From the IMG/VR virus record IMGVR_UViG_3300031675_000011, positions 1 through 31,533 of that record: 31,533 nucleotides of DNA, one strand, 5' to 3'. Source of the DNA: a virus. The position numbers were made by a program, and so were the translations under genes. How positions within the stretch are numbered: position 1 is the stretch's first letter; each line of letters begins with the position of its first letter. A model generated the notes under the pieces. That model did not search any database, was not told where the DNA came from, and saw nothing but the letters and a program-made list of their open reading frames with translations. Shown one piece after another: positions 12,134 to 31,533 of this stretch.

Positions 12134-12508
12134 ATGGCTAGATTAATCGGATTTAATACAATAGGTAAAACTAAAGCACCATTTACTACAACTGGTGCCG
12201 ATACAGTACTCCGTGATTTACAAAACGAGCTATACACTAAAAAGGGTGAACGGGCAATGAGACCAAACTTTGGGTGTATTATTTGGGACTTATTAATGGA
12301 CCCAGCAGATAGTAACGTTGAAAAACTTGCCAAGGAAGATATACAAAGAATATTAAAAAAAGACCCAAGGGTCGGTGAGAAAGAAGTAAAAGTGCTTGTA
12401 TTGGATAACTCTATAAGTGCCGAAGTTATAATAGACGTGATACCGTTTGGTTCCGTTGAAACATTATACCTAACTTATACTCAACAAATAAATGAAGGTA
12501 TTAGTTAA
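12134..12508 (+). CDS. 25: Baseplate wedge subunit gp25 (GPW/gp25 family)
   Basis: 124 residues. It shows the gp25/GPW pattern: MARLIGFNTIGKTKAPF, a helix ADTVLRDLQNELYTKKGERA, the core MRPNFGCIIWDLLMDP, then ANxVEKLAKEDIQRIL-type helix and KDPRV, ending in a strand-rich tail. T4 gp25 is 132 residues. It sits in the wedge core with gp6 and gp53 and helps trigger sheath polymerisation. I chose the ATG at 12134, not the in-frame ATG at 12113, because the latter lies within the late promoter and upstream of the predicted transcription start; the family also typically begins near this point. No ribosome binding site precedes it. The TAA overlaps the gp6 ATG (TAATG). Confidence 0.93.
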   Translation: MARLIGFNTIGKTKAPFTTTGADTVLRDLQNELYTKKGERAMRPNFGCIIWDLLMDPADSNVEKLAKEDIQRILKKDPRVGEKEVKVLVLDNSISAEVIIDVIPFGSVETLYLTYTQQINEGIS

Positions 12509-15500
12509 TGGCTAAAAGTAGACAAAACAATTTATTTGCCGCAGAAGATTGGAAAATTGCTTACAAGGCATACAGTCAGGTAGATTATCAAGCATACGAC
12601 TTTGACACCATGCGTGGTGCAATGGTCGACTACGTTAAAACAAATTTCCCAGAAAACTTTAACGACTATATTGAGAGCTCAGAATTTATAGCAATTATAG
12701 AATTGCTGGCATACCTGTCGCAGTCATTAGCATTCAGAATGGACGTGAACACTAGAGAAAACTTCTTAGAGACAGCAGAACGAAAAGACTCAGTGTTTAA
12801 ACTTGCAAGAATGCTAGGTTACAATCCTAAAAGAAACATTCCTGCCAGTGGAGTAATGAAACTTACAGGTGTAAAAACAACAGAGCCTCTTACAGACAGT
12901 TTAGGCGTTAATTTAATGAATAAAACAATCCTCTGGGATGATGTAAATAACTCAGACAACTATGAACAGTTTATTACAGTACTGAACTCTGCAATGAGTA
13001 GCACTAATAGATTCTCATCTCCTATTAAAACAGGAACAGTTAACAGCATTAACACAGAGTTGTATCAACTTAATACACCTTTCAACTCTCCTATAACATA
13101 TAATAACTCTGTAAACATTAATGGGGCAACTAAACAGTTTAATATTGTTAATCCAGATTTTAAGGACAACAGTCATTTTTATGAAAGGCACCCAGATCCG
13201 ACAAACTTGTTTAATCTAATTTATAGAAATGATGGCAAAGGAACAAGCAGTAGCAACACAGGGTTCTTTGTTATGTTTAGACAAGGATCGTTGGCATTTA
13301 CAGACTACAATTTTACAACACCAGTTGAAAGTAGAACACAAGATGTGCTAATTGAAAATATTAACGAATCAGATGTGTACTTACAAGAAGTAAACACAGG
13401 CGGTCAAGTGTTGTCTAAGTGGGAGAAAATTCCTAACACAGTTGGACAAACTCTAAACTATAACAGTAAAAGTTTAGACTCAAGAAATTTATACTCTGTA
13501 GAAAACATAGGCGACAGCAACGGAATAAGATTACGTTTCCCAGACGGTGAATTTGGAAACGTGCCTACAGGAATTTACAGACTATGGTACAGAACTAGTG
13601 ATCCTTCGAGATACACTATGGATCCAGAAGAAGCAAGAGGGCTATCAATATCAGTACCTTATACAAACGAAGCAGGTAAGAAATATAACTTATCGTTAAC
13701 TTACAGTTTACAATACGCTGTAGGTAACAGTAGTCCTGCAGAAAGTTTGGCGGCCATTAAAGATAGAGCTCCTAAAACATTTTACACGCAGAATAGAATG
13801 GTTAGTGCTCAAGACTACAATGTATTTCCAGAAACACAAAGTAGTAATGTAACAAAAATTAAAGCAATAAACAGAACGCATTCAGGCCATAGTCGTTATA
13901 TTGATATAAATGACCCAACTGGTACATATCATAACATTGACACATTTGCCGATGATGCATTTGTTTATGCTAACAACAGTAACTATAAACAAGAAATTAC
14001 AGTTAATGACGCCACAACAGCTCTAGAAGTTGTTGCTAGTGTTATCCCTGCCGCATTAAAAGATAGAAAAGTTAATAACTTTGTTTATTATAAAATGAGA
14101 AACGTTTGGACAAATACTGCTACAGGCGGAGCTTATGCAAACTTTAGGTACACGGCACATGATGCTGTATTATGGAATGCATTACCGTTAACAGAAACAA
14201 GTAAGACTGGTTATATCAGTGAACAATTTACTGATGGTAATAGAAACGTATTAGTTAACACTTTAGCAAAAACATCAATGTTTAAAGAAAACACTTTCTT
14301 AAAATTTGTTAACCCATCTGATTTAGCAGGCTATAAGTGGGTAAGAATTGTTAACATAGAAAACCGTGGAGCCTTAAGTGCAGGACTAAGTACCAGCATA
14401 GGGCCAATTACATTAAGTGAAGAAGTTAACTCATCATGGGAAGTGCGTGAAGTTATTGTTTCAATGAGAAAACTATTTAGCACAGCAGAAATTGGTGGAG
14501 CTTCTGGCTTCGAAACAGCCATAAAGAACAGAGAAACATTCGGAATAGGTTATAACTTACAAACTGATACTTGGTATAAAATACCTAGCACAGAGCTTAC
14601 AACAGCAAGTAAAACAGGCAGTTATAGTTTAAATTCTGTACAAGCAGGCCCAAACAGTTGGGTTATACTAATGGAATATAGTGCTATTGATATTAATAAC
14701 TATAAGTATAAAATGACGATACGTGGAGCAGAATACGTTGTACAAAGTGAGGCAGACCTTAAGTTTTACAACGTTAAATCGGTAAAAACTTTAGGCAGTG
14801 ATAATAAAAGTAATAAAGATACAGTTATTATTACCAGCACAAATACTAAGCCAGGCACATCGGAAACATTCGAATGGAGTGGAACGCAATGGACCAATAC
14901 AGAACATGGTATTGCTATAACACCAATAGGCTTAGCAATAAACTTACCATTAAGAACTAGAGATACAAAGGCAACTGACGTTGACACCCAGTGGGTTAGT
15001 AACTTTGGTATACTTAAAACTTACGGAACAAATGTTGCTGACCAAGTTGTTAATAATAAATATGTTGACGAAGCAATAGTAACACTAAATACTTACCATC
15101 AAGTAGGTGGTATTACTTCTGAAACTAATGTAGTTATTGCAAACAATATCGGAACTATACAAAGTTTACCTAGCAAAATTGATATACCATTTAACGATAC
15201 TACATTCGGTATAAAATTTGTGGATACTACAGAATCTATCCCATACATGGTTTATAGACAAGTACCTAATGAAGGATCAGCTGGAACAGAAAAGATTTTC
15301 AAATCAAGAGCTCAAGTTGTTACTGCTAACGGAGTTGCAGGCACAGGTGCAGGAGCAACAGAAACAGTTAAGTCATGGGGAGCAGACGGCTCAGCAGTTG
15401 ACAGCACACCGGACCTCGGTAGATTGCATTTAAAATCATACGATACTGTTACAGGCGTAGGTAAACTAGAATACGCAAGAGTACAAAATGGCGATTATCA

Positions 15501-16719
15501 TTATTCCAGAGATGATACTGCTAATCCGCCTTATAGAGATAAAATTGTTGTTCATTACGAAAACAGCAGAGAGAAATTAGATAAGCCTATTGAATGGGAA
15601 GTAGTGGACAGTTTTAAAGAATCAGACGGTTATACTGATAACAGAAAAGTTATTGTTGCTCCGTTAGATACTGACAACGACTTAGTACCAGATAGACCAA
15701 TACAGTTCTTAGAATATGTTGACGCAACAGATTATGTGTTCTTTTCATATTACACAGACTTTGATGGATACAAATACGATAAGCCGTACACAGGCGTTAT
15801 TAGAGATTTTAGGCGTGAAGATACATTATTAATTAACGATGCCAGAGATACTGTATCGCCTACATCATATAGAAAAGATGTATCGTTGAGCAGTTCTCAG
15901 TGGATAGTTGTTAAAAACAAAACAGTTGCCACACAGTTTGAAGATTTAGTTAACACAAAAGGTTTAATTGTTACAACAGCAGACGATATGAAAACATATC
16001 AATTAACTCCGCTAAGTACATCATTAACGCAAGTTAAGTTAAATTTAACTACTGACTACTTTGTTAAAAACGGTAGAGGTAAAACACAGAATAGTGATGC
16101 TCCTTTTATAGCACCAGGAACAATACGATGGAACCATGTAGCACCAAGTGATGTTAGAATTGATCCAAGTATTAGTAATGTTGTTGAGATGGTAGTATTA
16201 ACTACAAGTTATTACACAGACGTTTTAGAATGGCAAGCAAGACAAATTGGTACTTTCCCGCTAGAACCTACAAGCGACGAATTATCATCTGAGTTTGCAA
16301 TTCTCGATTCTTATAAGAGTGCGAGTGATACATTAGTGTATCGTAGTGCCAAGTTTAAATTATTGTTTGGTTCTTCTGCAGATGCAGTATGCCAAGCGAA
16401 GTTTAAAGTAATTAAGTTGTCGGATCAAATTAGCGACAACGAACTAAAAGCTAAGGTTATTAATGCTATTAATATATATTTTGCTGTAACTAATTGGGAA
16501 TTTGGTGAGTCTTTTTACTTTACTGAATTAAGCTCATACATTCATCAGCAACTAGGTAGTAACATAGGTAGTATTGTTATATTACCTAAAACTAGTACAG
16601 GAAAATTTGGCGAGATGTTCCAAGTTAAAGCAGAGCCAAACGAACTATTCATAAGCACCGCTACAGTTAGCGATATAGAAATTGTAAGTAGATTAGATAA
16701 CCAAACATTAGGATCATAG
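12508..16719 (+). CDS. 6: Baseplate wedge subunit gp6, greatly enlarged
   Basis: 1403 residues against 660 in T4. The N-terminal part is typical gp6: DYQAYDFDTMRGAMVDYVKT, SSEFIAIIELLAYLSQSLAF, RMDVNTRENFLETAERKDSV and KLARMLGYNPKR (about 25-112). A J-like segment contains RLRFPDGEFGNVPTG (near 340) and APKTFYTQNRMVSAQDYNVF (near 422). The C-terminal 100 residues (ISDNELKAKVINAINIYFAV, then WEFGESFYFTELSSYIHQQLG) match the gp6 dimer-forming end. Between about 500 and 1280 lies a long strand-rich insertion with no recognised domain. Gp6 forms the inner iris of the baseplate. GAAGG sits nine bases before the ATG. It ends with tandem stops TAG-TAA in the frame shared with the next gene. Confidence 0.92.
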   Translation: MAKSRQNNLFAAEDWKIAYKAYSQVDYQAYDFDTMRGAMVDYVKTNFPENFNDYIESSEFIAIIELLAYLSQSLAFRMDVNTRENFLETAERKDSVFKLARMLGYNPKRNIPASGVMKLTGVKTTEPLTDSLGVNLMNKTILWDDVNNSDNYEQFITVLNSAMSSTNRFSSPIKTGTVNSINTELYQLNTPFNSPITYNNSVNINGATKQFNIVNPDFKDNSHFYERHPDPTNLFNLIYRNDGKGTSSSNTGFFVMFRQGSLAFTDYNFTTPVESRTQDVLIENINESDVYLQEVNTGGQVLSKWEKIPNTVGQTLNYNSKSLDSRNLYSVENIGDSNGIRLRFPDGEFGNVPTGIYRLWYRTSDPSRYTMDPEEARGLSISVPYTNEAGKKYNLSLTYSLQYAVGNSSPAESLAAIKDRAPKTFYTQNRMVSAQDYNVFPETQSSNVTKIKAINRTHSGHSRYIDINDPTGTYHNIDTFADDAFVYANNSNYKQEITVNDATTALEVVASVIPAALKDRKVNNFVYYKMRNVWTNTATGGAYANFRYTAHDAVLWNALPLTETSKTGYISEQFTDGNRNVLVNTLAKTSMFKENTFLKFVNPSDLAGYKWVRIVNIENRGALSAGLSTSIGPITLSEEVNSSWEVREVIVSMRKLFSTAEIGGASGFETAIKNRETFGIGYNLQTDTWYKIPSTELTTASKTGSYSLNSVQAGPNSWVILMEYSAIDINNYKYKMTIRGAEYVVQSEADLKFYNVKSVKTLGSDNKSNKDTVIITSTNTKPGTSETFEWSGTQWTNTEHGIAITPIGLAINLPLRTRDTKATDVDTQWVSNFGILKTYGTNVADQVVNNKYVDEAIVTLNTYHQVGGITSETNVVIANNIGTIQSLPSKIDIPFNDTTFGIKFVDTTESIPYMVYRQVPNEGSAGTEKIFKSRAQVVTANGVAGTGAGATETVKSWGADGSAVDSTPDLGRLHLKSYDTVTGVGKLEYARVQNGDYHYSRDDTANPPYRDKIVVHYENSREKLDKPIEWEVVDSFKESDGYTDNRKVIVAPLDTDNDLVPDRPIQFLEYVDATDYVFFSYYTDFDGYKYDKPYTGVIRDFRREDTLLINDARDTVSPTSYRKDVSLSSSQWIVVKNKTVATQFEDLVNTKGLIVTTADDMKTYQLTPLSTSLTQVKLNLTTDYFVKNGRGKTQNSDAPFIAPGTIRWNHVAPSDVRIDPSISNVVEMVVLTTSYYTDVLEWQARQIGTFPLEPTSDELSSEFAILDSYKSASDTLVYRSAKFKLLFGSSADAVCQAKFKVIKLSDQISDNELKAKVINAINIYFAVTNWEFGESFYFTELSSYIHQQLGSNIGSIVILPKTSTGKFGEMFQVKAEPNELFISTATVSDIEIVSRLDNQTLGS

Positions 16720-16722
16720 TAA

Positions 16723-19092
16723 ATGTCTGAAAAGAAAGTGTATCAAAAGTTGCCAGCAGTCCTCCAAACGACTGCTATTAAGAACTTTTTTGAGAGTACA
16801 GTAGAACAATTATTTAGTAAATCAAATGTTGATTCTATACAAGGCTATATTGGCTCTCCAAGCAGTGACGATGTTAATGTTGCTGGAAAGTTTCTTGCTG
16901 AGCCAACAACAGTTAAAAAGTTTTACGGACTAAGCCCAGCAGTTAATACAATTAATACAACCACAGGAAAAAGTGAAAACTTATTCTTTTACGACGAGCT
17001 TGTAGATACTCTGCAAACATACGGAGTTAATACACTTAACCATAACAAGATTTTTTCAGAAAAGTACTCATCATTTTTACCTCCAATTAACATTGATAAG
17101 TTTATAAACTATCAAGAGTACTATTGGTATCCGTACGGTCCTACTGCAATTGTAGTTACCGGTACTGTAACAAATTATATAGATGTTGATACAGATATTG
17201 TTGGCAAGAAAGAATTTACACCTACTAGCGGTAAAGCATTCCGTAACGGTATGGTTGTTACATTCTCAGGAGACTATGTAGCTCCAGCAACAAAGCACAA
17301 CATTGAATATGTTGTACAAGGCGTCGGATCAGCTATTACATTAACTAAAAAAATAGTTAACCTAAGTGCTAGGTATACGTCAACTATGTATACAAGTAAA
17401 AATATTGACTTAGTTTGGAAAATTGCTGGTACAGTTACAGATATAGTAACATACACAGCGGCACAAACAGGTGATGCAATTACAACAGACGTTAGTATTC
17501 CATTAACTTATATTGCTGGAGCAAATGCACCAGCATTGCAAAAAGAAATTAAAACAATCATCGTTGGTACATTAAACAGATACAACGGTGCAACAATATT
17601 AAGTGACGGTACAACAACTATTACATTGAATCATGCAACTACTCAACCAAGAAACATTGTTGAACTTGTTACTGAAATTAAAGCACATGCTAATTATAGT
17701 GCATTAAAATTTACAGTACAAGTGGCAGATAGGGCACCAATGGATTATATTGTGCAAGAAAGAAATGCATTAAATAATAATGTATGGAGTAGAATAAACT
17801 TTTGGTATCACAGAAATAACTTTTTAGACGCCAGTGACTCTTTGCCTAGCAGGAAGTTTAGAGCTTCTAGACCAGTCATAGAATTTGATAAAGATTTAGA
17901 ATTATACAATCACGGCACTCTTAAGTCTATTGCAGATATAGATGCAGTGGCATATAATGTTACATACAAAGAATTAGATGGTTCACCAAAAACAACATTA
18001 ATAGATGGATTAAACAAACTAAACTATAGCAGTTTAATTTTTATCAATGAAACAAAAGAAATTGCAAAATATGTATACAAGTTAACTAAAGTAGCAATGA
18101 AGCCGGTAGTAACAGCATCCATAGGTACAGGCGCAACATTTAGTGTTACGTTATCAGGCCAAGGTAGAACAAGTAGTATGAGTGCAATAACAGTTACAGC
18201 AGGCGGAACAGGTTACACTGGTAGTTCAGTTATTACAATAACAGACACATACGGTACTGGAGCAACAGCGACAGCAACAGTTAGCAGTGGAGCAGTAACA
18301 GGTGTTACTATGACAAACGGTGGTACTGGTTATTATCTAGATTCTCAATACAGGCTAGAACAACTAGGTGACCCGGACACTAATCCATCTGGCGCTATAG
18401 AAGGGTCTGCAATATTTAAGCCGTTAATAGCATCAACAAATCAAACAGTTTCTGTTGTAGGTGGCGAAACATACTTAGGCAAAGAATTTAAATGGACAGG
18501 GTTGCAATGGCAATTATGTCAAGAAAAAATAGTAAACAACCAAGCACCGTTATTCAATTTATATAGCAGTGATGGAAATGCACTAGATGATATTGCGGTA
18601 TATCCTACTTCAACATTTAACGGTAGCAAAATATTTGGCTATGCTGAAGATGTGCCAATTACTGATTCAACAAACATCAGTAAAAGTACAACAGTTGATC
18701 CACAATTAGGAACATATTTAGTGTACAAACAATACAATGCACAAAGCGAAATACTTTTTGAAAACTTTATTGAAACTGAAAGTTTTAGTTATACGCCATA
18801 CGGTACTAATACTTCAACAGGCGTAACACTAGGCGCATCAAATACAGGCGGTCCATATTCTATAAATGGTTACTATCCTTTATACTCAAAAGAAGCACTA
18901 GCACAGGCGGCTGGCGACAGCACAACGCATGAACATGTATTCTTCGGAAAGACATTTTACATGCCAAACGGACTGGTTTTAGGCACAACATACTTCCATG
19001 GAAACTACAATGGAACACTAACTTCATCTGAAAATACCACGAATTCTACAACGATAAATACTAGTACAAGTACAACAGGAGGCTCGTACTAA
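16723..19092 (+). CDS. Virion structural protein, N-terminal partner of the giant protein (789 aa)
   Basis: 789 residues. The N-terminus (about 8-140) reads KLPAVLQTTAIKNFFESTVE, QLFSKSNVDSIQGYIG, FLAEPTTVKKFYGL, then FSEKYSSFLPPINIDKFINY and QEYYWYPYGP, a pattern I associate with the very large tail-associated virion proteins of marine T4-like phages. Residues about 489-537 hold two GxGY beta-repeats, and residues 710-767 an MPNG module (GPYSINGYYPLY to YMPNGLVLGTTYFHGNYNG) that recurs at the start of the next protein. A Ser/Thr-rich tail ends it. AGGA lies nine bases before the ATG. It shares its frame with gp6, separated only by TAG-TAA, and its stop overlaps the next ATG. It has no enzyme motif. 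Confidence 0.85.
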   Translation: MSEKKVYQKLPAVLQTTAIKNFFESTVEQLFSKSNVDSIQGYIGSPSSDDVNVAGKFLAEPTTVKKFYGLSPAVNTINTTTGKSENLFFYDELVDTLQTYGVNTLNHNKIFSEKYSSFLPPINIDKFINYQEYYWYPYGPTAIVVTGTVTNYIDVDTDIVGKKEFTPTSGKAFRNGMVVTFSGDYVAPATKHNIEYVVQGVGSAITLTKKIVNLSARYTSTMYTSKNIDLVWKIAGTVTDIVTYTAAQTGDAITTDVSIPLTYIAGANAPALQKEIKTIIVGTLNRYNGATILSDGTTTITLNHATTQPRNIVELVTEIKAHANYSALKFTVQVADRAPMDYIVQERNALNNNVWSRINFWYHRNNFLDASDSLPSRKFRASRPVIEFDKDLELYNHGTLKSIADIDAVAYNVTYKELDGSPKTTLIDGLNKLNYSSLIFINETKEIAKYVYKLTKVAMKPVVTASIGTGATFSVTLSGQGRTSSMSAITVTAGGTGYTGSSVITITDTYGTGATATATVSSGAVTGVTMTNGGTGYYLDSQYRLEQLGDPDTNPSGAIEGSAIFKPLIASTNQTVSVVGGETYLGKEFKWTGLQWQLCQEKIVNNQAPLFNLYSSDGNALDDIAVYPTSTFNGSKIFGYAEDVPITDSTNISKSTTVDPQLGTYLVYKQYNAQSEILFENFIETESFSYTPYGTNTSTGVTLGASNTGGPYSINGYYPLYSKEALAQAAGDSTTHEHVFFGKTFYMPNGLVLGTTYFHGNYNGTLTSSENTTNSTTINTSTSTTGGSY
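18187..18333 (+). repeat. GxGY beta-repeat pair in the 789-aa protein
   Basis: Two units of the type ITVTAGGTGY and VTMTNGGTGY separated by a strand-rich, Thr/Ala-rich spacer (ATATATV). The same unit recurs in the giant protein at 22032-22226, 24315-24380 and 26286-26747. Confidence 0.75.
18850..19023 (+). repeat. MPNG module, copy 1 (C-terminus of the 789-aa protein)
   Basis: Residues 710-767: GPYSINGYYPLY, then HEHVFFGKTFYMPNGLVLGT and TYFHGNYNGTLT. Aligns over its full length with copy 2 at 19131-19310. Bases 18961-18989 are identical to 19248-19276 (29 of 29). Confidence 0.9.
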
Positions 19093-22000
19093 TGGCAACT
19101 GTAAATTTCGTTGGGGCAGGTAACACAGCAGGACCGTTTGCAATCGACGGACATTACCCGTTATATGCCACAGAAGCTAAATCAAATACACATGATGGAG
19201 GTAACGGTACCTCACATCTGCATGTGTTCTTTGGCCAAAACTTTTATATGCCAAACGGACTGGTTTTAGGCACAACTTACTACCACGGTACATACGACGG
19301 TTCACTAACAGCAGAATATAATCAATCTGCAACAACAACTAGTGCATCAAGTATCAAGGGATATTATTATTACAAACTAGATAAAGACGCTCCTGAATAT
19401 CACAACGCATGGAAAACTGTTGATAATCCTACGCAACAAAGAATTATTACAACATACGATTATACTCAAGTTAATGTTGATCTTGTAACAGACGAATTTT
19501 GGATAGGTTGCTACCCAAATACAATGACATCAACAGTTAGCGGATACGACATTATTATAAAAGTAAATGCAGTAGCAGTTACTGATTTCACATACGGTGA
19601 AGTAAACAGAGAAGGTTTTATAAGATTTGCATCAACAAGAACTTTTAAAGCAGGTGACTTTATAGAAATTAGTGCGTACTCAGACAAAGGATTAGTTAGC
19701 ACAACTGGTATTAGTAAATACGAAATACCATTAAGTTGGGGACATAACACTAAGAATACTGACATAACATATATTAGTGCACCAGAGTACACAGGACAAT
19801 TTAAAGATCATATTGAAGGACAAGAAGGGTTTACAGGAAAATCATTAGGTAGTAACAACTACCAAGACGGTCCTAAAGTTGCTGGTATTGAAAACAATAT
19901 AGTGCAAACCAATCAAGACATTTTGCTTGGCGCATTTCTACTTGACGACCAGCCAGGCAACTTAGTTGATGCATTAAGATTTAATGCAAATGAATATGTT
20001 AAATTTAAAAATCGCGTAAGACATGAGATAGAAAAATATTACTCAGATAAATCTGTAACAGGTTTGTCCAATGAATATATTCTCGAGCAAGTATTAAGAA
20101 ACGTTACCAGTTTTAAGATTGGCAAAGATGTATTCAGTAAAACATATATCTTGCCTTTTGGAGACAACTATACTAAACAAGACTTTATTATTACACTAGG
20201 TACAACTGCTTACACATTAACTAAGTATTTAGACTTAGACTTAATTGAGAACAGTCTGCTAGTATACTTAAATAATAAATTATTAACTGTTGAAAAAGAT
20301 TATACTATTTCAAGTTATAACCCAATAGAAATAACATTAGTAACTACAGTAACAGCAGGCGACACACTATGTACTAAACTGTATAACGCAGAAAGAGATA
20401 GTGCTCAGTGCCCACCGACTCCAAGTACAATGGGTATACTACCTTTACACCAACCAATAATAGCAACAGATACAAGTTTTAAAACGAGCATATCAACACT
20501 AATAGGACATGACGGAAGTAGACAAAAAGCATTTGGTGATTTTAGAGACGATATTCTTTTAGAATTTGAAACTAGAATTTACAACTCTGCAAAAGCAGAA
20601 TTTAGAACAGCTAACAGTCTACCAGCGTACAACAGTATAGATATAAGATGTGGTGCATTTAGAACTAACGGATATACTCACAACGAGTTTCACGATTTAT
20701 TAAGACATTACTTCTCAGCATGGAATATTAGCAACAAACTAGATCCAGTTGTAAATGAATTTTATGATTCTACTGATGAATGGACATGGAACTATAGCTC
20801 AACAGACTTACCAGGACATTGGAGAGGATTTTACGAGTACTATTACGATACAGTAAGACCTAACACTCATCCGTGGGAAATGCTAGGCTTTACAGAAAAG
20901 CCGTTATGGTTTGATGCACAATATTATGTGTATGCTGATACCGATGTTAGTAAAAGTACCCCGTCTATTAATTATGGCTCAACTAATATAGTACTGTGGG
21001 CTGACTTAGAACAAGGTATTATTAGACAAGGACCTAGAAAAAACACAACTAGTTATACAGTTAATAATCCATACAGACGTATTGGGTTAAGTAAAGTTTT
21101 ACCTATAGATTCTAGTGCTAAACTTATAAGCCCTTACAGAATTAAAACAACAGATAGTTCGTCTATTACAGTAGACTGGGCTAACACTACAGGAACAGCA
21201 GACAGTTTGTTTGCGTTTAGAACAGGTAGTTTTAGAGCATTAGATGGTATTAGTGTTAGTACAGATAATAACAAATTGTATGTTGAAAGTAATAACTTAC
21301 CTACTACAACTAGTAAAACTACAGAGCAAAAAACAACATTTGCTTTTCCTAGATTAACACAATTAAATGATTCATCATCTTGGAATGCATCTAGTCAAAC
21401 AAAAGCAGGCGCCGTTGGTGTACTAGTTAACGGTGATCCGTTAATGAGTCTAGACAGTGGCAAGTGGTGGGACAACAATAAGACGTACGACACAGCAACA
21501 TGGATTTATAACAAAGGACAAGAGAGTGGCTTAGGCAATTCTACTATTACAACGGCTGGTGTAAAAACACATTACACTATAACACCAGAAGTAATTGGCT
21601 TAACAGCATGGGCAACAGACTCTGCTTCACCTATTGTGGGTTGGGCATTTGATGGTTTACCAATTTACGGACCATATGGTTATAGTGATGCATCAGACAA
21701 TACAAGTAGTATTGTTAGAATAAAAAGCGGTTGGGAATTAGATACAAGAGCAAGGGGAACTGGCAACGCAGACGAAACAACTGGACCAGGCGGAAAGCCA
21801 ACTGGACAATATATAAAAGACTTTAAAATAAGTGCAAGTGCCGGTTCTAGTGGATATACAACTAGCTACAACATGAGATTAGCTGTAACACCGGATAGTG
21901 CAACACCAATTTATCACTATGTAGCAACCATCAATGCTGACGGCACACCTGCTTTCCCTTATCATGTAGGTGGCGGTATTATTAGTACAGATAGATGGAA

Positions 22001-25000
22001 AGGAGAGTACAGAAGTGTTTCAGAACAAGTAGGTGCTGTAACTTCAATAAATGTTACAGATAAAGGTGGATTATATACTTCTGCACCAAGTGTAGTAATA
22101 ACAGGAGACGGTAACAACGCGGCGGCTACAGCAGTAATTACAAATAAAAAATTAACAAGTGTGACCGTAACAACTCCTGGTTCTGGTTATACTTATGCAA
22201 CAGCAACAATAACAGGTGGCGGCGGTGTTAGAGCTAAAGTAACAGTATCTGTTTCTGGTAAAGACAACAGCACATTTTCTGGCAAAACTAATTCATCAGC
22301 AACAGCGGCATTAACAAGTACTAAATCTACTACATTAGCAAAAGGCACAGGCTTAGACGGTGTATGGAAATTTGGTGATGGCGCACCAGTAGAAAATGCA
22401 TTTAAGTACAGTTCAACATATCCGTTTGCCTTAGCAGAAGCATTACTATTAGCTAAGCCAGGTCGTTTTGCAACTGTATTCTCAGACCCTACAACGTTGT
22501 CAAGACCAGCAGTTAACAATACACAGTTCTTAAGTAAAAATACTAATAAACGTTGGAAGTTCTTAAACACAACAGATTTTAAAATTCACGGTGATGTAAA
22601 TAAAACTACTGGTAAAATGCACACTAACATTGGTTACACGCAGTTTATTAATAGTTGGTTAAAGTTCCAAGGGTTAGATACTACACTAAACTTTGCTACA
22701 CCGTTGCGTTCACTTAATGTTAAACTTGCACATAGAATGAGTGGCTTTATTGACAAAGACACACTTTCTGCAAGAACAGACCAATATAGTAATTCCGGTA
22801 ATGCTACAAGTTTAATTATTCCTAAAGAAAATATTACAACAACATTGCATAGTAGTAACTACAAGTCAAGAAACTTCTACTCAGGTGTTGTTGTTGAACA
22901 AACTTCAACTGGATATAGAGTTAGAGGATTTGATAAGAACAGAGGATACTTTGAAGTAATAGAAGGTATTAAAACAGGAAAATCTCTGAGAATAGAAGTT
23001 GGCGGAGATCCTGAAACATTTTCTGTATGGAAACAAGGTGTAACTTACAGCACTGGCAATATTGTACAATATAGAAATAATTTTTATCAAGCACCGTTAA
23101 GTATAACATCAGGTACAATATTTGATACTAAGTTATGGCAAAGGCTTGCTAAACTACCTCAGATTGATTCTGCAACAGCAGTACAGTATTTAGATTCAAC
23201 TGAAGTAATAAAACGTATTCCATATGAAACTGAGTACACAACAGTACAAGAAGTTGTTGATCTAATGATTAACTTAGGTAGATTCCAAGCCAGTCAAGGT
23301 TTTGATTTTAGCCAGTTTGACAGCGACATTGCCGCTGTTAAAGATTGGGCCTATAGTGCAAAACAATTTTTGTTCTGGACAACTGGCGTATGGCAAATAG
23401 GTAACACTATTGAACTATCTCCACTAGCCGGCAATGTTAAGTTTATTGCTCCTAGAGGATTCATTGCAAAAATTAATAGAACAGACAGAGAGCAGTTTGC
23501 AATACTAGATCAAATAGGCGAAGGAATAGATCCTACGCATTGTACTATTCTTAGAGAAAATGATTACATAGAAGTAAGTCCACCAACTGGAAGCCAAATT
23601 TATAGTTTAATGTTGTTTACTAAAGAGATTGAACATGCATTGGTATTTGATAACGAAACAAACTTTAGTGATGTTATTTTTAATGACACGTTTAATCAAC
23701 GACACAAACGTATTAAACTTAAAGGACAACGAACAGCAAACTGGGAAGGCAAATTCTTAAGTCAAGGATTTATTATTGATGGTGAAGAATTATTACCTAA
23801 CTTAGATAACATGGCAGAGAGCCTAGGACGTTATCACGAGTTTGGATTTATTCCAGTAGAGAAGCAAGTATACCAAGCAAGTAGATCATTATTTGGTTAC
23901 ACTGAACGGGACTACTTAACTGAACTTGATATTCAAGATGATGAGCAGTTTGATTTCTACAGAGGCATGATACAAGGCAAAGGTACTAAAGAAAGTTTAG
24001 GAAGAATTGCTAGAAGTAGTGCAGTAGTATCAGGTAACGTTAGCATATTTGATGAATGGGCTCTTAGAGTGGGCGACTTCGGCGACACTGAAAATGATCA
24101 AAGCATTGAGCTAAAACTTGTTAAAACAGAAATAACTCAAGACCCGCAATTAATTACTTTAGACTTTCCAGAAAATGTTACTAACATTGTTGAAAGAGTC
24201 GATGTTGTAGATGCCACTTATGCATATAACATTGTGCCTAGTATTGAAATCTCCGGACCAGGAATAGGTGGAGTACAAGCAACAGCTACAGCAACACTAG
24301 ATACAGCAACAAGTAAACTACAAAAAATAACTGTTACAAACTCAGGAAGTGGTTACGGGGCAATACCTACTGCAAAAGTACTAGCAAGTAATATAGTACT
24401 TAGTTCAGGTAGTTCAACAATTAATAAAACTATTGCACCTATAAGCAACTACTTTGACTTTACACAAACAACTGCATCAATTACTATTGCTGATGCGTTA
24501 AGTTCAAATACCGCACAAGTAATTACAGTAACAAATGGTGGAAGTGCTATTACTACAGCAAATGTACTAACAGCGATTAATGATAACTTAGCCATTAATG
24601 CTAATGTAAAAGTTAGTTTAGTACCATCAGAAGTTATTAGTGGAAGTTCAACAGTAACAAAATATACTGCAATATTTGCCGGTAAAGATTTTTACTTAGA
24701 CAATGCAGACAACTTTGGTACTGATAATTCTAATGCCAATGTACATTACCAACCTATACAAAGATATGCAGTATCAAGTGCAATGGCTGGTTCAACTACG
24801 CAAACAACAATTAACGATGTAGCCGTAACAATAGACGGTACAGCGGTTGCTTCTTCATATTTTACATATGATTCAGGTAGCATTAGTTCTGTAACAACAA
24901 CAGCAACGTATCCAAGTTTAGATACTACTGCCACTAGAGCAGATGGTGTTATTGTATACCCAGAACAAAACAACAGTTTTACAATTACATTAAGCACGGC

Positions 25001-28000
25001 GATTGATACAAACAATCTAGAAGTTGGCGAAGACGGTAACTATAAGTTTGTTGATTTATATATCGGCAATGTGTTAATAAGTAACAATCACAACTCATTA
25101 GCATTCGGTGATCACGACAATAATTCTAGTACTGCTGATCAGCAGTACACAACAGTAAACGGAACAATGTTTACTATTGCCGCAAATGGTGCCAGTGTTA
25201 CATTCCCAGATGTTAAGAGACTTCCGGAGAGTGTTAAGTCAACTATCATGAATCCACCTACTACAGCAGATGCTGATGGTAAGCAACAGCAAATAGTTAA
25301 AGTTATTGCAAGTGGAACTGTAATTAAGGTTATAGAAGATCCAACAGTAACACTAGCTACATCATTGAAAACTGATATACCTGGTGCTGTATTAAACATT
25401 AAAGTAACAGCACAAGACGGTATTGCTGTTAGAATGGGAACTAAAAGAAACTACGCAGTTACAGCCGACGATAAAAACGATGACACAATATTAATTGATA
25501 TTGATGACTCAACAAGGTTTATTAAAAAGCCTACAGGTGTTAAAGAAAACAACTTGTGGCCAACAACTAAATTAGTTAATGCATCTGGTTTAACAGATCC
25601 TAAGTATGCTACCATTAAAAATGCTGGTTATGTGAACAAGGGTAATGTTACCTTCCAGTCATTTGATATCGCTAGTCTGCCAGAGCTATACAGCAGTGAT
25701 TTAATATTTAAGCCTACAACAAACGACTTAGTACATATTGCATACAGTGAAGATAACGACTGGAATGTTTATAAACTAACGCCAACAGACGCATCAGTTC
25801 ACTACCTAAAAAGAAATGCAGGCGGGAAAGTATCATTACTAACTAATGACAGTTTATTTAACTACTTAGATACCAATGAAATTGGTACAACAGATTCTGG
25901 CAAGTATTTAGATTACTACTTGTCTCTAGACAATGCAAACATAAACAATCAAGTGGTTGTGTGGACTAACGAAAATGTAGTACAAGAAAAACAATCTCAG
26001 ATTACAGACTTTAGTGCTCCGCAAATGATTCAGGCTCGTATTGAAAGTATTGGGCCTCAAGTAAGCAAAACAATTACAGCAGTTAATCCTCACTTAGGTA
26101 AAATTATTAATGGTGTTACGTTAACCCCTATAAACAAGAGTGATAAAGTTGTAGCAACTGGTGACATAACAAGCATAAGCAATTTAGACGCATTTCAGTT
26201 AGTAGACAATGTTGGTATAGAAACTCAGAATCCTGCGACACTTACTGCTGGTGGAACAAATCAAGTTGTTGTAGATCCAATTAGGGTCGAGAGTATCACA
26301 GTTAGCAGTGGAGGTTCTGGTTATGCTAGTGCTCCAACAGTTACACTTACAGCTAGTCCTACAAGCGATACTGCATCAGCACTAGCAACAATTATTGGTC
26401 CTATAAGCACAGCAGTTACAATAGGTAACGGTGGTTTAGGATATGCGGCACCAATATTAATAATTAGCGACCCAGAAAATACTGACCCAGATTCAAGTAG
26501 TCCAACATTCGGATTGGCAAATGTTGCAACAGCAACAGCTACAATTAATTCTGATGGAACTATTACAGCAGTAACAGTAACAAATGCAGGTGCAGGATAT
26601 ACAACAGCACCAACAATTACTGTACAAGGTGATGCAACTGTAACAGCGTTACTAACATCAACACTAAATGCATTAGTTGACAGTATTGTTATGTACAACA
26701 GAGGTAGTGGTTATAGTGCTACATCAGTTGCAGTAACAGTTAGTGGCAATGCAACAGCAACAGCAACTAAAACAACACCAGCTACATCACCAATAGCAAA
26801 ACTATATGCCGCGGCTAGCAATAATGCAACTAAAGTTGGTATTCGATTCTTAAGCGACATGAAAGATAGTTTAGCATTTAAAATAACTACCCCGAGAACC
26901 GTAAGTGAACAAGCAACATATGATGCTATAAAAGTTATACAAAATCGTAGATTTAAATTAATATCGTACAACACAACTACAGGAACTTTTATTTTACAGC
27001 ATCCTGCTTTTGGTGTAGCAAACGTAATCACAAACTTAAAAAACATAGGTTACGAAGCAAAAGTAGTAACAACGTTTACCCCTAATGGTGCAACTCACTT
27101 CACAGTAACAGACACTGGTTATAGAAGATTTGAGTTTGAAGACATTACATCAGGCTCAACAATTGGGTATTCTCAAAATGTTACTATTAGGCATTTAAAT
27201 AAATCTAAACTAACAATTGCAAATCACTGTCTTACAGTCGGTGATACTATTAGAGTATTTACAAATACATTTAGTGGTGCATACAATATTGATACTGTTA
27301 TAGACACAGACAATGTTATAATCAAAGCACCATATATACCTGGGTTCTCATCAGGTTCAATTTACGGTGATGGCATACAAATTAAAACAGTGGCTCCTCA
27401 CGGAATCTCTCCAATATATGCGTCATCAAACAAATCTATAGCAGTACATTTTGCTGACCCTAAAGCATATAACAAAACTTATATTATAGATTCATTAACG
27501 CCTAACACTATTAACATAGGCGGAAGATGGGCACCTATAACAGGAACAGCAACATACTACGAACATAAAATAGCAACGTTAACAGGTGCAACAGCATACG
27601 ACGGTACTAATAGTGCTACAGCAACAAACGTTGTAGACGTTACAAATGATCCAAAACTAAATGAGATAATTGTAACATATAGTGCTAACAGCAATATTGT
27701 TCCACCACAGTTTGTTAGATCAGAAGGCGCAAAAATAAAAATTCATACAGACGCCTTGCCAGCAGTAACACCAGCTAACACTTATCCACCGGTTGGAATA
27801 TCAGTTGCAAGACAACGTGGTAGAGACTCGGACAGATACCCTCTGGTTACAACACTTGGATTTGACGAAGTAAATGTTAACGGTAGCACCTTTAAAATTG
27901 ACAACATTAATAGTGCTAAAGCAGTTGAAAGTTCTATTAACAGAGCAATTGGTTTAAGAAGAGAACATGTAAGACAAAAAGATAGAGGTTCAGAAGTTGG

Positions 28001-31000
28001 ATTTGTTATAATGAATAATCCAGACACAACGGTGTTTAACGGATTATCTTCTAAGTACATTAGTAACTACGGAGCATACATTAATGATCCATCTTTAGTT
28101 AACGAAATAAGTGGCGGAGCATTAGTATCTGAAAAGAGTATTTCGTATGCAAGTGCAGGCGAAAATGTTATTGATAACGAGTTTAATCCAGGACCACTTA
28201 ATAGTGGGCCAATTCATGGATTAGCATATACTGATCCAGATACATTAATATACTATATTTGGAATGCACCATTAGGAAAATATAGAGCATATTCCTCAAC
28301 ACAAGAAACTACTACCCCGAGTGCGAATAGTAATAAATCAGCTGTGCCGTCTAACCACCAAGCACAGACAGTAGCACAATATACAACGTGGGAAGCGTCT
28401 GTAGGATTTACAGTTAGCTCAGATCCATTAGAAAATATAGCATACTGGTCTGGCGCTATTGTTAGTCACAACTCTAAGAGTTATAAAGCAAGTGCCGACA
28501 TTACTATGTCAAACAACACAGTATTCGAAGTGGCACGTTGGGCCGAGCTAGTTGGCAATACAAGTTCTACTACATTAAGCGGATACTTTGCAGATGCTAC
28601 AGCAGAAAATAACGCAAATTTATTACTAAATGTAATACCAACTAACAACTCAGTATCAGCTACAGCGCCAGGTACAAAACGTATTAGCTATAACATGTTA
28701 TCTACAGTTACTAAAACACTTGCTAATTCAAGTACTGTTACTATACCGACATTTAGATTAGCTGTTAGTGAACTAAACTTATTTGAAGTTTACGAAGCTG
28801 TACAAAACGATGGTGCAGGTTCGGCAAACGGTGACGTCTATTACATACTAGTTGATAAAATTAATCCAGAGATAGTTGACTCACCAATAGACTATTACGG
28901 AACTGTTAATTTATGGAGCAGTTTTGGTAACTACAAACGAACTGAATATTATTACATAAACGGCATTACACCAACTGTGGATGCTAGTAACAGAATTACT
29001 AATAGACTAGATCCTATGAGAGTAGAATCAACTGTTAGTGTAGTTAATTTACCTCCAGTTGAGCCAGCCGCATTTATTGGTTTACAAACTATAGAAGAAC
29101 CATTTGCAGTTACAGGCGGCAACAATTCAGATCCTGTAGCAAATATTAATGCTATTTCAGGATTAAAAATTACAGGCAATACTGTTACAGTTAGTGACAC
29201 AGGTCATAACAAATTCTTTATGTGGACACCAGGGCTTAAACCAAATATGTGGAAGCCATCAGATGGACCTGAAGGACCAGGGTACTTACCTGGTGTTAAT
29301 GGTGGAGACACAGTATTCGGTTATGGTAGAGGTTACTATACTCTAAATGATACACATTTACCAACTGATTATCCAGATGTAGCAAGTTATGTCGAGACAG
29401 ACAAAACACCATACAGCGGATTAATGCCTAGATTTATGTACAGTAAGAAATTTACTGTGAGTCCAGAAGCAGTTGCTTATAAAATTGAAATATTTACAGA
29501 CACCGACGGTAACATAATATCTGAAGAAGAAGCAGAGATATTAGGTAGGGTGCCAGGAACTATAACATTACCAGAATATGTAACTTCAACTAATGAAGAT
29601 ATAGGTATTACAGGTATACGCCCTGAAGAATTATTTGTTGCTTGTTTCTGGACCGAAGAACATGTATATACAAACCAGCTCACAAGTTGGAATTATAGCA
29701 TACTTAATGCCGCAGGTCAACCGACCCCTGTATTATCTAATTACACAGGTACAGTAACTAGGGTAAAATATATTAGACTTACTGAACTTCCTGGCAATGC
29801 ACATACTAGCAGACTAATACCAGATACAGGTTGGGCAGGCAGAGGATGGAATAACACTATTGCTGATAGGTTGCCAACAGATTATAATGAAGATAGTATT
29901 TTAGATTTATTTAGACCTACTACTGTAGCAGGCGGAAGTACAGACAGTGATGACGAAGGTGTAACTGTTGAATTAGGTATAGGTGACCAAATTGCTGATG
30001 GTGAAGTTAACGTAGGAAAAACAGGACAGTTAGCACCTGGTACAACTAATGCCCATACAATTCCCACTACACCACTAGGGCCAATGTTAAACGGTGAGTT
30101 CTTAGCTGGCTTACCAGGACCTTGTGCAACACTACCAGAACTTACATCACCTGCTAATGATTCAAGTTCTTGTGCGGCTGAACTAGGTCAGCTAGAGTAT
30201 GCAATTATTGATAACACTAATGCTCAACGCAGAGGTGAAGACATAGTATTAACTAAAGAAGAAGCGGCAGACGTTGGTATTGACCAAACCGGTAGTGTAA
30301 CATATACAGACAATGAGTCGTTTGACTTTTCTGCAGGTACTTCTGCAGGTACATACGCAGACAAATTTGACACCAGTAACTGGCAATATGTAAATGTAAA
30401 TATTTCAGGAAACAATTCTATTAGAGTGTTCTTTGACTTCTTAGAAAGTTCCACACAATTAGAACACGGAAGTGTAGTAATGGTGCAAAACACCGAACCA
30501 TACTTTTATGCTACAGAAGGCAAAGCTGGATTAGTCGATGACTCTGTAATTAATCCTTTCACTGGTGCTGAGACTGGTGTATCTAACGGTGGCTGGGTAA
30601 AGAATCCTAATGGTGCTAATAAGCGACCAACAAAAGAGCTGAATTGGTGGATGAACGCAAGAGTACTAGCAAGTACTCAAGTATCTGGAGACGCTAGAGG
30701 AACAAAAGGCGATCAAGTATCACAATACGGTGTAGACTTTATTGGCAACACAAACTTAAAGCGTAATGATATTGTAGACTCTAATTTAATAAGCCAACGC
30801 CAAAGCAGAGAAGATTGGGCTTTTGATGCTAGTTCAAATCCGGGACCAGTTGCATCAGAAAGCGATCAACGAGTATCGGCAAACCATATAAACACAACCA
30901 CAGGAATGTTACAGTTTAGTGGCGATACAGACTTAGATAGTACTAAAAAGTCTGATCACGCCGACAATAGAGCAAAGTGGTTACAACATGATATTGGTGT

Positions 31001-31533
31001 ATCAGGTATTGGTTTTATAAGTTCAGCTGTGAAATGTAGTTTAGGCGAATATGTTACTATATTTATTAGACCAGATTCTACTGTTACTAGAGCAGATACA
31101 CAAACAACAGCAGTTTTATGGCAAGCAATTATTGAGTTTACTGGTGCTGTAGTTGACAGCGACCTTATAAATCCGCCAACAGCCGCATGTGTTGAAGGAC
31201 ACAGTACTGCATATACTCAAGGTGCTGTTAAAAGTACATGGCAAGGCACTAACAGTTGGGGTTACTTTGGGCAACATAAGTCCGACAACGAACGATTTGA
31301 TCGTAATAAAACTGGACAGTATCAAAAAAAGACCCACTTAGATAACATATACTATCCTTATATGCGTTTACCTAATCCATATGATTCTAGTTTATATAAC
31401 AGCATGCCAGACGCAAAGTGGGGAGAATGGCATCATTGTCACAATACTGATAAAGTTGCAACAGGGCCAGGTGTTAGAGAATTAGCTAAAAGAACTATTA
31501 GCACAATACAGCGAACAACATTAGCAAAGTACA
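19092..31533 (+). CDS. Giant modular virion (tail/fibre-type) protein, open to the window end (partial)
   Basis: The frame opens at ATG 19092 and I find no in-frame stop to 31533: at least 4147 codons, end not seen. AGGAGG (19077-19082) lies nine bases before the ATG, which overlaps the previous stop (TAATG). Visible parts, by residue: MPNG module (14-73); a mixed region with QTNQDILLGAFLLDDQPGNL (about 275-295); YHYH-type domain (831-962); GxGY beta-repeats (981-1045, 1742-1763, 2399-2552); two short aromatic modules like carbohydrate-binding CBM5/12 (1313-1352, 3117-3153); and ARSSAVVSGNVSIFDEWALR (about 1640). No transmembrane or enzymatic motif was noticed. Its place after gp25-gp6 and under the same late promoter implies a tail or baseplate-attached structural role; host binding is inferred from the modules. 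Confidence 0.92.
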   Translation, partial: MATVNFVGAGNTAGPFAIDGHYPLYATEAKSNTHDGGNGTSHLHVFFGQNFYMPNGLVLGTTYYHGTYDGSLTAEYNQSATTTSASSIKGYYYYKLDKDAPEYHNAWKTVDNPTQQRIITTYDYTQVNVDLVTDEFWIGCYPNTMTSTVSGYDIIIKVNAVAVTDFTYGEVNREGFIRFASTRTFKAGDFIEISAYSDKGLVSTTGISKYEIPLSWGHNTKNTDITYISAPEYTGQFKDHIEGQEGFTGKSLGSNNYQDGPKVAGIENNIVQTNQDILLGAFLLDDQPGNLVDALRFNANEYVKFKNRVRHEIEKYYSDKSVTGLSNEYILEQVLRNVTSFKIGKDVFSKTYILPFGDNYTKQDFIITLGTTAYTLTKYLDLDLIENSLLVYLNNKLLTVEKDYTISSYNPIEITLVTTVTAGDTLCTKLYNAERDSAQCPPTPSTMGILPLHQPIIATDTSFKTSISTLIGHDGSRQKAFGDFRDDILLEFETRIYNSAKAEFRTANSLPAYNSIDIRCGAFRTNGYTHNEFHDLLRHYFSAWNISNKLDPVVNEFYDSTDEWTWNYSSTDLPGHWRGFYEYYYDTVRPNTHPWEMLGFTEKPLWFDAQYYVYADTDVSKSTPSINYGSTNIVLWADLEQGIIRQGPRKNTTSYTVNNPYRRIGLSKVLPIDSSAKLISPYRIKTTDSSSITVDWANTTGTADSLFAFRTGSFRALDGISVSTDNNKLYVESNNLPTTTSKTTEQKTTFAFPRLTQLNDSSSWNASSQTKAGAVGVLVNGDPLMSLDSGKWWDNNKTYDTATWIYNKGQESGLGNSTITTAGVKTHYTITPEVIGLTAWATDSASPIVGWAFDGLPIYGPYGYSDASDNTSSIVRIKSGWELDTRARGTGNADETTGPGGKPTGQYIKDFKISASAGSSGYTTSYNMRLAVTPDSATPIYHYVATINADGTPAFPYHVGGGIISTDRWKGEYRSVSEQVGAVTSINVTDKGGLYTSAPSVVITGDGNNAAATAVITNKKLTSVTVTTPGSGYTYATATITGGGGVRAKVTVSVSGKDNSTFSGKTNSSATAALTSTKSTTLAKGTGLDGVWKFGDGAPVENAFKYSSTYPFALAEALLLAKPGRFATVFSDPTTLSRPAVNNTQFLSKNTNKRWKFLNTTDFKIHGDVNKTTGKMHTNIGYTQFINSWLKFQGLDTTLNFATPLRSLNVKLAHRMSGFIDKDTLSARTDQYSNSGNATSLIIPKENITTTLHSSNYKSRNFYSGVVVEQTSTGYRVRGFDKNRGYFEVIEGIKTGKSLRIEVGGDPETFSVWKQGVTYSTGNIVQYRNNFYQAPLSITSGTIFDTKLWQRLAKLPQIDSATAVQYLDSTEVIKRIPYETEYTTVQEVVDLMINLGRFQASQGFDFSQFDSDIAAVKDWAYSAKQFLFWTTGVWQIGNTIELSPLAGNVKFIAPRGFIAKINRTDREQFAILDQIGEGIDPTHCTILRENDYIEVSPPTGSQIYSLMLFTKEIEHALVFDNETNFSDVIFNDTFNQRHKRIKLKGQRTANWEGKFLSQGFIIDGEELLPNLDNMAESLGRYHEFGFIPVEKQVYQASRSLFGYTERDYLTELDIQDDEQFDFYRGMIQGKGTKESLGRIARSSAVVSGNVSIFDEWALRVGDFGDTENDQSIELKLVKTEITQDPQLITLDFPENVTNIVERVDVVDATYAYNIVPSIEISGPGIGGVQATATATLDTATSKLQKITVTNSGSGYGAIPTAKVLASNIVLSSGSSTINKTIAPISNYFDFTQTTASITIADALSSNTAQVITVTNGGSAITTANVLTAINDNLAINANVKVSLVPSEVISGSSTVTKYTAIFAGKDFYLDNADNFGTDNSNANVHYQPIQRYAVSSAMAGSTTQTTINDVAVTIDGTAVASSYFTYDSGSISSVTTTATYPSLDTTATRADGVIVYPEQNNSFTITLSTAIDTNNLEVGEDGNYKFVDLYIGNVLISNNHNSLAFGDHDNNSSTADQQYTTVNGTMFTIAANGASVTFPDVKRLPESVKSTIMNPPTTADADGKQQQIVKVIASGTVIKVIEDPTVTLATSLKTDIPGAVLNIKVTAQDGIAVRMGTKRNYAVTADDKNDDTILIDIDDSTRFIKKPTGVKENNLWPTTKLVNASGLTDPKYATIKNAGYVNKGNVTFQSFDIASLPELYSSDLIFKPTTNDLVHIAYSEDNDWNVYKLTPTDASVHYLKRNAGGKVSLLTNDSLFNYLDTNEIGTTDSGKYLDYYLSLDNANINNQVVVWTNENVVQEKQSQITDFSAPQMIQARIESIGPQVSKTITAVNPHLGKIINGVTLTPINKSDKVVATGDITSISNLDAFQLVDNVGIETQNPATLTAGGTNQVVVDPIRVESITVSSGGSGYASAPTVTLTASPTSDTASALATIIGPISTAVTIGNGGLGYAAPILIISDPENTDPDSSSPTFGLANVATATATINSDGTITAVTVTNAGAGYTTAPTITVQGDATVTALLTSTLNALVDSIVMYNRGSGYSATSVAVTVSGNATATATKTTPATSPIAKLYAAASNNATKVGIRFLSDMKDSLAFKITTPRTVSEQATYDAIKVIQNRRFKLISYNTTTGTFILQHPAFGVANVITNLKNIGYEAKVVTTFTPNGATHFTVTDTGYRRFEFEDITSGSTIGYSQNVTIRHLNKSKLTIANHCLTVGDTIRVFTNTFSGAYNIDTVIDTDNVIIKAPYIPGFSSGSIYGDGIQIKTVAPHGISPIYASSNKSIAVHFADPKAYNKTYIIDSLTPNTINIGGRWAPITGTATYYEHKIATLTGATAYDGTNSATATNVVDVTNDPKLNEIIVTYSANSNIVPPQFVRSEGAKIKIHTDALPAVTPANTYPPVGISVARQRGRDSDRYPLVTTLGFDEVNVNGSTFKIDNINSAKAVESSINRAIGLRREHVRQKDRGSEVGFVIMNNPDTTVFNGLSSKYISNYGAYINDPSLVNEISGGALVSEKSISYASAGENVIDNEFNPGPLNSGPIHGLAYTDPDTLIYYIWNAPLGKYRAYSSTQETTTPSANSNKSAVPSNHQAQTVAQYTTWEASVGFTVSSDPLENIAYWSGAIVSHNSKSYKASADITMSNNTVFEVARWAELVGNTSSTTLSGYFADATAENNANLLLNVIPTNNSVSATAPGTKRISYNMLSTVTKTLANSSTVTIPTFRLAVSELNLFEVYEAVQNDGAGSANGDVYYILVDKINPEIVDSPIDYYGTVNLWSSFGNYKRTEYYYINGITPTVDASNRITNRLDPMRVESTVSVVNLPPVEPAAFIGLQTIEEPFAVTGGNNSDPVANINAISGLKITGNTVTVSDTGHNKFFMWTPGLKPNMWKPSDGPEGPGYLPGVNGGDTVFGYGRGYYTLNDTHLPTDYPDVASYVETDKTPYSGLMPRFMYSKKFTVSPEAVAYKIEIFTDTDGNIISEEEAEILGRVPGTITLPEYVTSTNEDIGITGIRPEELFVACFWTEEHVYTNQLTSWNYSILNAAGQPTPVLSNYTGTVTRVKYIRLTELPGNAHTSRLIPDTGWAGRGWNNTIADRLPTDYNEDSILDLFRPTTVAGGSTDSDDEGVTVELGIGDQIADGEVNVGKTGQLAPGTTNAHTIPTTPLGPMLNGEFLAGLPGPCATLPELTSPANDSSSCAAELGQLEYAIIDNTNAQRRGEDIVLTKEEAADVGIDQTGSVTYTDNESFDFSAGTSAGTYADKFDTSNWQYVNVNISGNNSIRVFFDFLESSTQLEHGSVVMVQNTEPYFYATEGKAGLVDDSVINPFTGAETGVSNGGWVKNPNGANKRPTKELNWWMNARVLASTQVSGDARGTKGDQVSQYGVDFIGNTNLKRNDIVDSNLISQRQSREDWAFDASSNPGPVASESDQRVSANHINTTTGMLQFSGDTDLDSTKKSDHADNRAKWLQHDIGVSGIGFISSAVKCSLGEYVTIFIRPDSTVTRADTQTTAVLWQAIIEFTGAVVDSDLINPPTAACVEGHSTAYTQGAVKSTWQGTNSWGYFGQHKSDNERFDRNKTGQYQKKTHLDNIYYPYMRLPNPYDSSLYNSMPDAKWGEWHHCHNTDKVATGPGVRELAKRTISTIQRTTLAKY
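19131..19310 (+). repeat. MPNG module, copy 2 (N-terminus of the giant protein)
   Basis: Residues 14-73 of the giant frame: GPFAIDGHYPLY, then HLHVFFGQNFYMPNGLVLGT and TYYHGTYDGSLT. Copy-to-copy protein identity is high, and the central 29 bases are exact. The two copies flank the stop-start junction at 19090-19094. Confidence 0.9.
21582..21977 (+). other. YHYH-type domain in the giant protein
   Basis: Residues 831-962 contain SPIVGWAFDGLPIYGPYGY, then a Gly/Thr-rich insert, PIYHYVATINADGTPAFPYH and VGGG. The DG.PIYGP..Y motif followed by YHYH and FPYH matches the YHYH family (the motif that names it), known from environmental bacteria and from virion proteins of marine phages. Its biochemical role is not established. 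Confidence 0.7.
22032..22226 (+). repeat. GxGY beta-repeats, block 1 of the giant protein
   Basis: Two units, INVTDKGGLYTSAPSVVITG and VTVTTPGSGYTYATATITGG, directly after the YHYH domain (residues 981-1045). Confidence 0.75.
23028..23147 (+). other. CBM5/12-like aromatic module, copy 1
   Basis: Residues 1313-1352: WKQGVTYSTGNIVQYRNNFY, then QAPLSITSGTIFDTKLWQRL. The W..G..Y..G..V.Y....Y.A.......W spacing is that of small chitin/cellulose-binding modules. Sugar binding is inferred from this pattern only. Confidence 0.5.
24315..24380 (+). repeat. GxGY beta-repeat, block 2 of the giant protein
   Basis: A single unit, KLQKITVTNSGSGYGAIPTA (residues 1742-1763). Confidence 0.65.
26286..26747 (+). 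repeat. GxGY beta-repeats, block 3 of the giant protein (four units)
   Basis: Units ITVSSGGSGYASAPTVTLT, VTIGNGGLGYAAPILIIS, VTVTNAGAGYTTAPTITVQG and IVMYNRGSGYSATSVAVTV within residues 2399-2552, separated by Ala/Thr-rich strands. The regular unit suggests a repetitive beta structure such as a fibre shaft or immunoglobulin-like display module. Confidence 0.75.
28440..28550 (+). other. CBM5/12-like aromatic module, copy 2
   Basis: Residues 3117-3153: AYWSGAIVSHNSKSYKASAD, then ITMSNNTVFEVARWAEL. Same YW.G..V.......Y.A......F....W..L pattern as copy 1 at 23028-23147, with little direct sequence identity. Confidence 0.45.

Follow-up and report, generated by a model that had tools for sequence, protein, structure and literature searches.

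The window analysed here, which is a complete 31,533-base IMG/VR record, ends inside a single frame that runs from an ATG at 19092 through 4,147 codons with no stop, a length whose chance probability at the base composition of the window is ~1e-134 (Table 1). What does a frame of this size encode, and why does it begin where it does? The initial annotation had described at least 4,147 codons open past the window end and had proposed extending the frame rightward to its stop. This extension is provided by a 75.6-kb IMG/VR contig (3300027779_002128) that is 99-100% identical to the window and in which the same frame continues uninterrupted and reaches a stop after 7,187 codons (L015:1001-22564). 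Window and contig have no differences over an 11.8-kb stretch (18502-30289), beside which 11 differences are clustered at 18317-18501 in what looks like a recombination patch. The open frames of independent relatives have 7,179-7,203 codons, and in one continuous relative the stop-to-stop count is 7,915 codons, or ~7,914 aa from its Met. The 7,187-aa product is among the largest viral proteins known, and the early judgement that its size nears the phage upper end agrees with the largest phage proteins reported by Al-Shayeb et al., of 7,694 aa (PMC7162821). As both 7,187 and ~7,914 aa are of the same order as this reported value, size alone is not new.

Table 1. Features of the window with their positions, strand and supporting evidence. 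Residue numbers refer to the giant frame.
Feature	Position	Strand	Evidence or remark
SegE-like GIY-YIG homing endonuclease	840-1319	-	PF19835 E 8e-33; overlaps gp46-like gene end
gp6 (baseplate wedge), 1,403 aa, ends RLDNQTLGS	12508..16719	+	phrog_10646, phrog_219
N-terminal part of split giant protein, 789 aa	16723..19092	+	phrog_10938 16-227; collinear with continuous relatives' N-termini
Module copy 1, near C-terminus of 789-aa protein	18841..19023	+	profile search; predicted beta-beta-alpha-beta-beta
Low-complexity tail (Thr/Ser/Asn, then Gly), ends GGSY, predicted disordered	19024..19089	+	
AGGAGG ribosome-binding site, within tail codons, 9 nt before ATG	19077..19082	+	
TAATG, stop of 789-aa gene overlapping giant-frame start	19090..19094	+	1 nt gene overlap
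Giant frame, C-terminal part of split protein	19092..31533	+	open at window end
Module copy 2, N-terminus of giant frame	19122..19310	+	profile search
Conserved core 1, residues 88-681	19353..21134	+	common to PA5oct; beta-sandwich domain resembling baseplate/fibre-docking domains
YHYH domain, residues 765-949	21384..21938	+	PF14240 E 3.5e-22
Conserved core 2, residues 1088-1789	22353..24458	+	common to RaK2/PA5oct-type jumbo phages
CBM5/12-like motif, residues 1313-1340	23028..23111	+	PF02839 E 0.0016, below Pfam cut-off
GxGY repeat cluster, residues ~2396-2560	26277..26771	+	motif count
Second CBM-like motif, residues ~3101-3157	28392..28562	+	motif only, weak

We consider it probable that the frame encodes the larger chain of a two-chain giant baseplate protein (~7,976 residues) of a marine, jumbo-related myovirus, which was split by a gp6-type cassette and whose halves would reassemble. 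The plus strand opens with three genes that have no Pfam match, which are followed by a gp5-like gene (OB and lysozyme domains), gp25, gp6, a 789-aa gene and the giant frame, while a SegE-like GIY-YIG endonuclease and gp46/gp47-like genes lie on the minus strand. The T4 baseplate gene order is the basis for the placement that we propose: because the giant frame follows a gp5-like gene, gp25, gp6 and the 789-aa gene, it appears to stand where gp7 does in a T4-type baseplate operon, as judged from gene order and one domain. Only the bases between 16719, where gp6 ends, and 16723, where the next gene starts, separate the two, and the same post-gp6 order is found in PA5oct, RaK2 and Atu_ph07. The Salicola phage SCTP-2 has a gp6-position gene of ~3,096 codons (L198:2633-11923), far above the usual size. 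The T4 late-promoter consensus, sought to help the operon map, is absent from the window, with 0 copies of the box TATAAATA found in 1-31533 against 4.6 +/- 2.1 expected from shuffles.

The wedge is a heterotrimer of (gp6)2-gp7 in T4 and of (gp16)2-gp17 in XM1 (PMC10457771). The present locus resembles these wedges in its gene order (gp25, gp6, then the giant protein) and in a core domain that is similar to baseplate domains. Compared with T4 gp7, however, the giant protein is many times larger and has no detectable gp7 sequence similarity; profile searches with the family found no gp7 match in PDB sequences, and PDB sequence searches with single proteins and profiles gave nothing above noise. 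AlphaFold2 models of the 789-aa protein and of a continuous relative are of moderate confidence (mean pLDDT 63-64). When compared by VIA-align, in which likeness under ~Z 8 can mean a common arrangement only, the core domain (518-606 of the continuous-relative model) best matches the phage P1 baseplate (Z 9.2), with lower scores for the T7 gp17 N-terminus (Z 6.8), the phi812 and phiKZ baseplates (Z 6.8) and T4 5iv5_A (Z 6.2). The 789-aa model yielded no useful match by VIA-align (best Z 3.4). Foldseek returned 0 matches to the PDB for both models at E <= 0.001, and 9 matches to viral models at the same threshold, including YHYH-domain proteins and an Atu_ph07 structural protein.

A single protein family, phrog_10938, extends over both genes. 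Its profile positions 16-227 match the 789-aa gene (E 1.9e-77), positions 484-1592 match the giant frame (E 1.9e-70 and 5.1e-108) and positions 1781-2140 match beyond the window (E 2.9e-69). Single-gene homologues follow gp6 in PA5oct (gp355, 3,857 aa, annotated as detected by mass spectrometry, ESI-MS/MS), RaK2 (gp465, ~3,326 aa), Atu_ph07 (gp180, ~4,449 aa) and SCTP-2 (gp140, ~3,807 aa), and together with many uncultured marine viruses these one-chain relatives span ~3,300-7,900 aa. Many of 41 uncultured contigs tested have continuous frames of 6,200-6,800 codons, continuity being taken as N- and C-terminal probes lying in the same frame. Homology is collinear across the 7,187 residues, with mid-protein gaps for some relatives: PA5oct aligns to giant residues 88-681, 1088-1789, 5830-6364 and 6886-6989, and ~4,000 residues between the cores are present in the giant protein and absent from PA5oct. 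The four jumbo-phage proteins therefore have homologous N- and C-terminal cores and the same post-gp6 place, but are one chain of about half the size, where here there are two chains of 789 and 7,187 aa. In cyano- and pelagimyophages the place of gp7 is said to be taken by VrlC (PMC7029224), and the likeness extends to YHYH proteins in the same operon. A VrlC identity was considered and not adopted. Core queries without the YHYH domain matched 60 records, and among the matches listed there were jumbo phages and no cyanophage was named.

The post-gp6 position, the PHROG match and the full-length homologues identify the giant frame as the C-terminal ~90% of a larger protein, probably of the baseplate wedge region, whose N-terminal part is encoded by the 789-aa gene. 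The initial annotation had assumed one self-contained virion protein, which has to be revised as ~700 N-terminal residues of the family sit in the upstream gene. It had also named the outcomes that would speak against it. Neither an in-frame stop nor an assembly frameshift was found, independent contigs being uninterrupted, but relative to the family there is an extra start at 19092 with a strong ribosome-binding site, so that its other contrary outcome, several separately initiated proteins, is in part what the locus holds.

Continuous relatives pass across the break from ..YTPFG directly into ..GYYYYKL, without the module. The window and all contigs at 79-100% identity have one order at the break site, which is a module of ~60 residues, a Gly/Ser-Tyr tail, TAATG and a second module. 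Purifying selection acts on both sides of the break: dN/dS is 0.13 in the 789-aa core, lies at 0.12-0.15 in the giant frame and is lowest in the modules, at 0.04-0.10. When a continuous relative is modelled with AlphaFold2, the equivalent of the break is position 250, next to residues 254-276, which are modelled with low confidence and separate folded parts; the break thus appears to fall at an inter-domain linker. Translation of the two chains is probably coupled, with termination and re-initiation at TAATG. Division by a homing endonuclease or an intein was rejected, as no Hint or endonuclease match lies beside the break and there is no untranslated insert, the genes overlapping by 1 nt.

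Searches for the module in Pfam, in the sequences of the PDB, in 50,697 phage records and in a prokaryote genome collection (84,980 species) gave no match; it is present in the split lineage but without trace in PA5oct or the other phage records searched. Among the IMG/VR matches listed in two scans, up to 80 loci in each, it sits only at the gp6 C-terminus or at this break. When borne by gp6 it leads into a tail rich in Gly and Ser that has Tyr as its last residue, and GY or SY terminates every one of the 81 module-bearing chains that were checked. An alignment of gp6 C-termini shows that gp6 of the split lineage is without the C-terminal module carried by gp6 of most relatives. Counted as distinct sequences, with one frameshifted contig set aside, the module is on gp6 in 37, all with a continuous giant gene, and at the break in the four that are split, none of which has it on gp6; a further eight have no module at either place and are all continuous. 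Because the split is one evolutionary event, these counts provide few independent observations of gp6 exclusivity. In the module tree the two copies fall into separate clades, each with members from across the split lineage, and these clades are sisters with modest support (0.77). The core of copy 1 is modelled at pLDDT ~76-79 as a small fold that leads into predicted disorder. One relative with the module is carried by a 339,794-base contig (L176), a jumbo size which suggests that the genome behind the window is probably much larger and the window only a fragment of it.

These observations are consistent with a model in which, in the ancestor of this lineage, a gp6-type cassette entered the giant gene at the linker between two domains. 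Such a cassette would comprise the module of ~60 aa, a tail of the Gly/Ser type that includes a ribosome-binding site and has Tyr at its end, and a stop overlapping a start. A second copy of the module would have been placed after the new start, gp6 would then be without its module, and the two chains would reassemble in the wedge. If the giant protein is the gp7 counterpart, with two gp6 per gp7, a gp6-borne module would be present twice in each (gp6)2-gp7 wedge, and a split protein with a single copy in the wedge would again bring two, one on either half. The move from gp6 into the giant gene would keep the module number while dividing the chain, and the two modules of a wedge may act together at a single site, either holding the chains or docking a partner. 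We infer the transfer from gp6 from the shared likeness of the cassettes, no intermediate having been seen, and we propose the pairing of the modules and the reassembly of both chains in the wedge. A more speculative extension, to which we give limited credence, is that a small wedge module, its copy number fixed at two per wedge, travels from one baseplate gene to another as a self-contained cassette and could divide an essential giant structural gene in one step and cap both new ends, with the paired modules rejoining the halves.

The main rival explanation, less probable although one to be taken seriously, sees the module as a domain for host contact or decoration on a flexible tether at any free chain end, with no joining role, the split having simply provided two more such ends. 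A predicted disordered tail after the module, its C-terminal place in gp6 and its conserved histidines (HxH, HG), which could bind metal, would all suit such a domain, as would the YHYH and CBM-like modules in the same protein; yet among the matches listed the module is confined to gp6 and one break, with none on fibre genes, and the giant protein has copies at the break and none at its far C-terminus. Its dN/dS of 0.04-0.10, below that of the flanking protein, would moreover be unusual for a receptor-binding tip.

The remaining explanations concern the break itself. It is extremely improbable that 19092 marks an assembly or sequencing frameshift in a truly continuous gene. While relatives are continuous and single contigs such as G015 and L192 do show frameshift-like breaks, the same break recurs in the near-identical contig and in relatives at 79-81% identity, where extra modules, a ribosome-binding site and TAATG accompany it, and an assembly error at the frame start is ruled out by the independent contigs. 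Programmed -1 frameshifting at the overlap could make one chain, and the overlapping frames with AGGAGG upstream would permit it, but in three lineages the stretch open in both frames is no longer than 27-54 nt and has no X XXY YYZ heptamer; with no slippery site we rejected fusion of the chains in this way as highly improbable. A similarly slight probability attaches to the 789-aa gene and the giant frame being ordinary, unrelated neighbouring tail genes: each has a start codon with a ribosome-binding-site-like sequence, but one PHROG family and continuous relatives cover both.

The division of one giant protein into two chains that would reassemble has counterparts among the split genes of T4-like phages, which include nrdA of Aeh1 (split by mobE), gene 43 of phages 25 and 44RR, and T4 topoisomerase gene 60 (PMC2988022). 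These too are continuous in relatives and give two chains that reassemble, as shown for nrdA and gene 43. They are, however, enzymes divided by a homing endonuclease or an untranslated insert, whereas the giant split affects a structural protein, has no insert between the chains and leaves each new end with a copy of the module.

A division of the giant gene at another place, into ~5,030 + 3,300-3,390 codons, is seen in L008/L009 and contig G013. The different break site means that division has happened more than once, by different means, the second being independent of that at 19092. In L009 the first part (L009:5018-20098) ends with a glycine-rich linker, a Hint/intein domain (PF14890, E 3.5e-11) and then Asn-Met. 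Intein splicing needs Cys, Ser or Thr after Asn, and because Met stands in this place, self-cleavage rather than splicing is likely.

Putative binding modules make up a minority of the giant protein. The YHYH domain, which has been proposed as a metal-dependent hydrolase (PMC7824862), was recognised in the initial annotation and is recovered as PF14240. The GxGY repeats that it described are also borne out, with 8 [GA]xGY motifs in the window part, partly clustered, against a mean of 2.4 in 500 shuffles (largest 8). Of its two CBM-like modules, one corresponds to a sub-threshold CBM_5_12 match (18.9 bits against a cut-off of 26.2), while the second is seen by motif alone. NCBIfam gave no match to the giant protein, and the last 1,147 in-window residues have no match among phage isolates. 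Just beyond the window, at residues ~4223-4279 of the L015 giant protein, lies a GLEYA lectin-type domain (PF10528, E 2.4e-07). Such domains are usual in fungal adhesins. The suggestion of a host-contact structure is retained in part: the protein belongs to a virion-protein family and has YHYH, CBM5/12-like and GLEYA modules, types that occur in host-contact proteins, but the frame encodes the C-terminal piece of a protein, probably of the baseplate wedge region, and not a self-contained one.

Our results describe growth of the protein at the gp7 position, which measures 7,187 aa in this virus and reaches ~7,914 aa in a continuous relative, compared with ~3,300-4,450 aa in the isolates considered. 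They also point out an uncharacterised conserved module, so far found only in uncultured viral contigs, and predict its location. A giant unknown frame thereby becomes an example of fission of a gene for a structural machine that is open to testing, and present-day relatives display both the continuous and the split state as well as the likely donor, the gp6 C-terminus.
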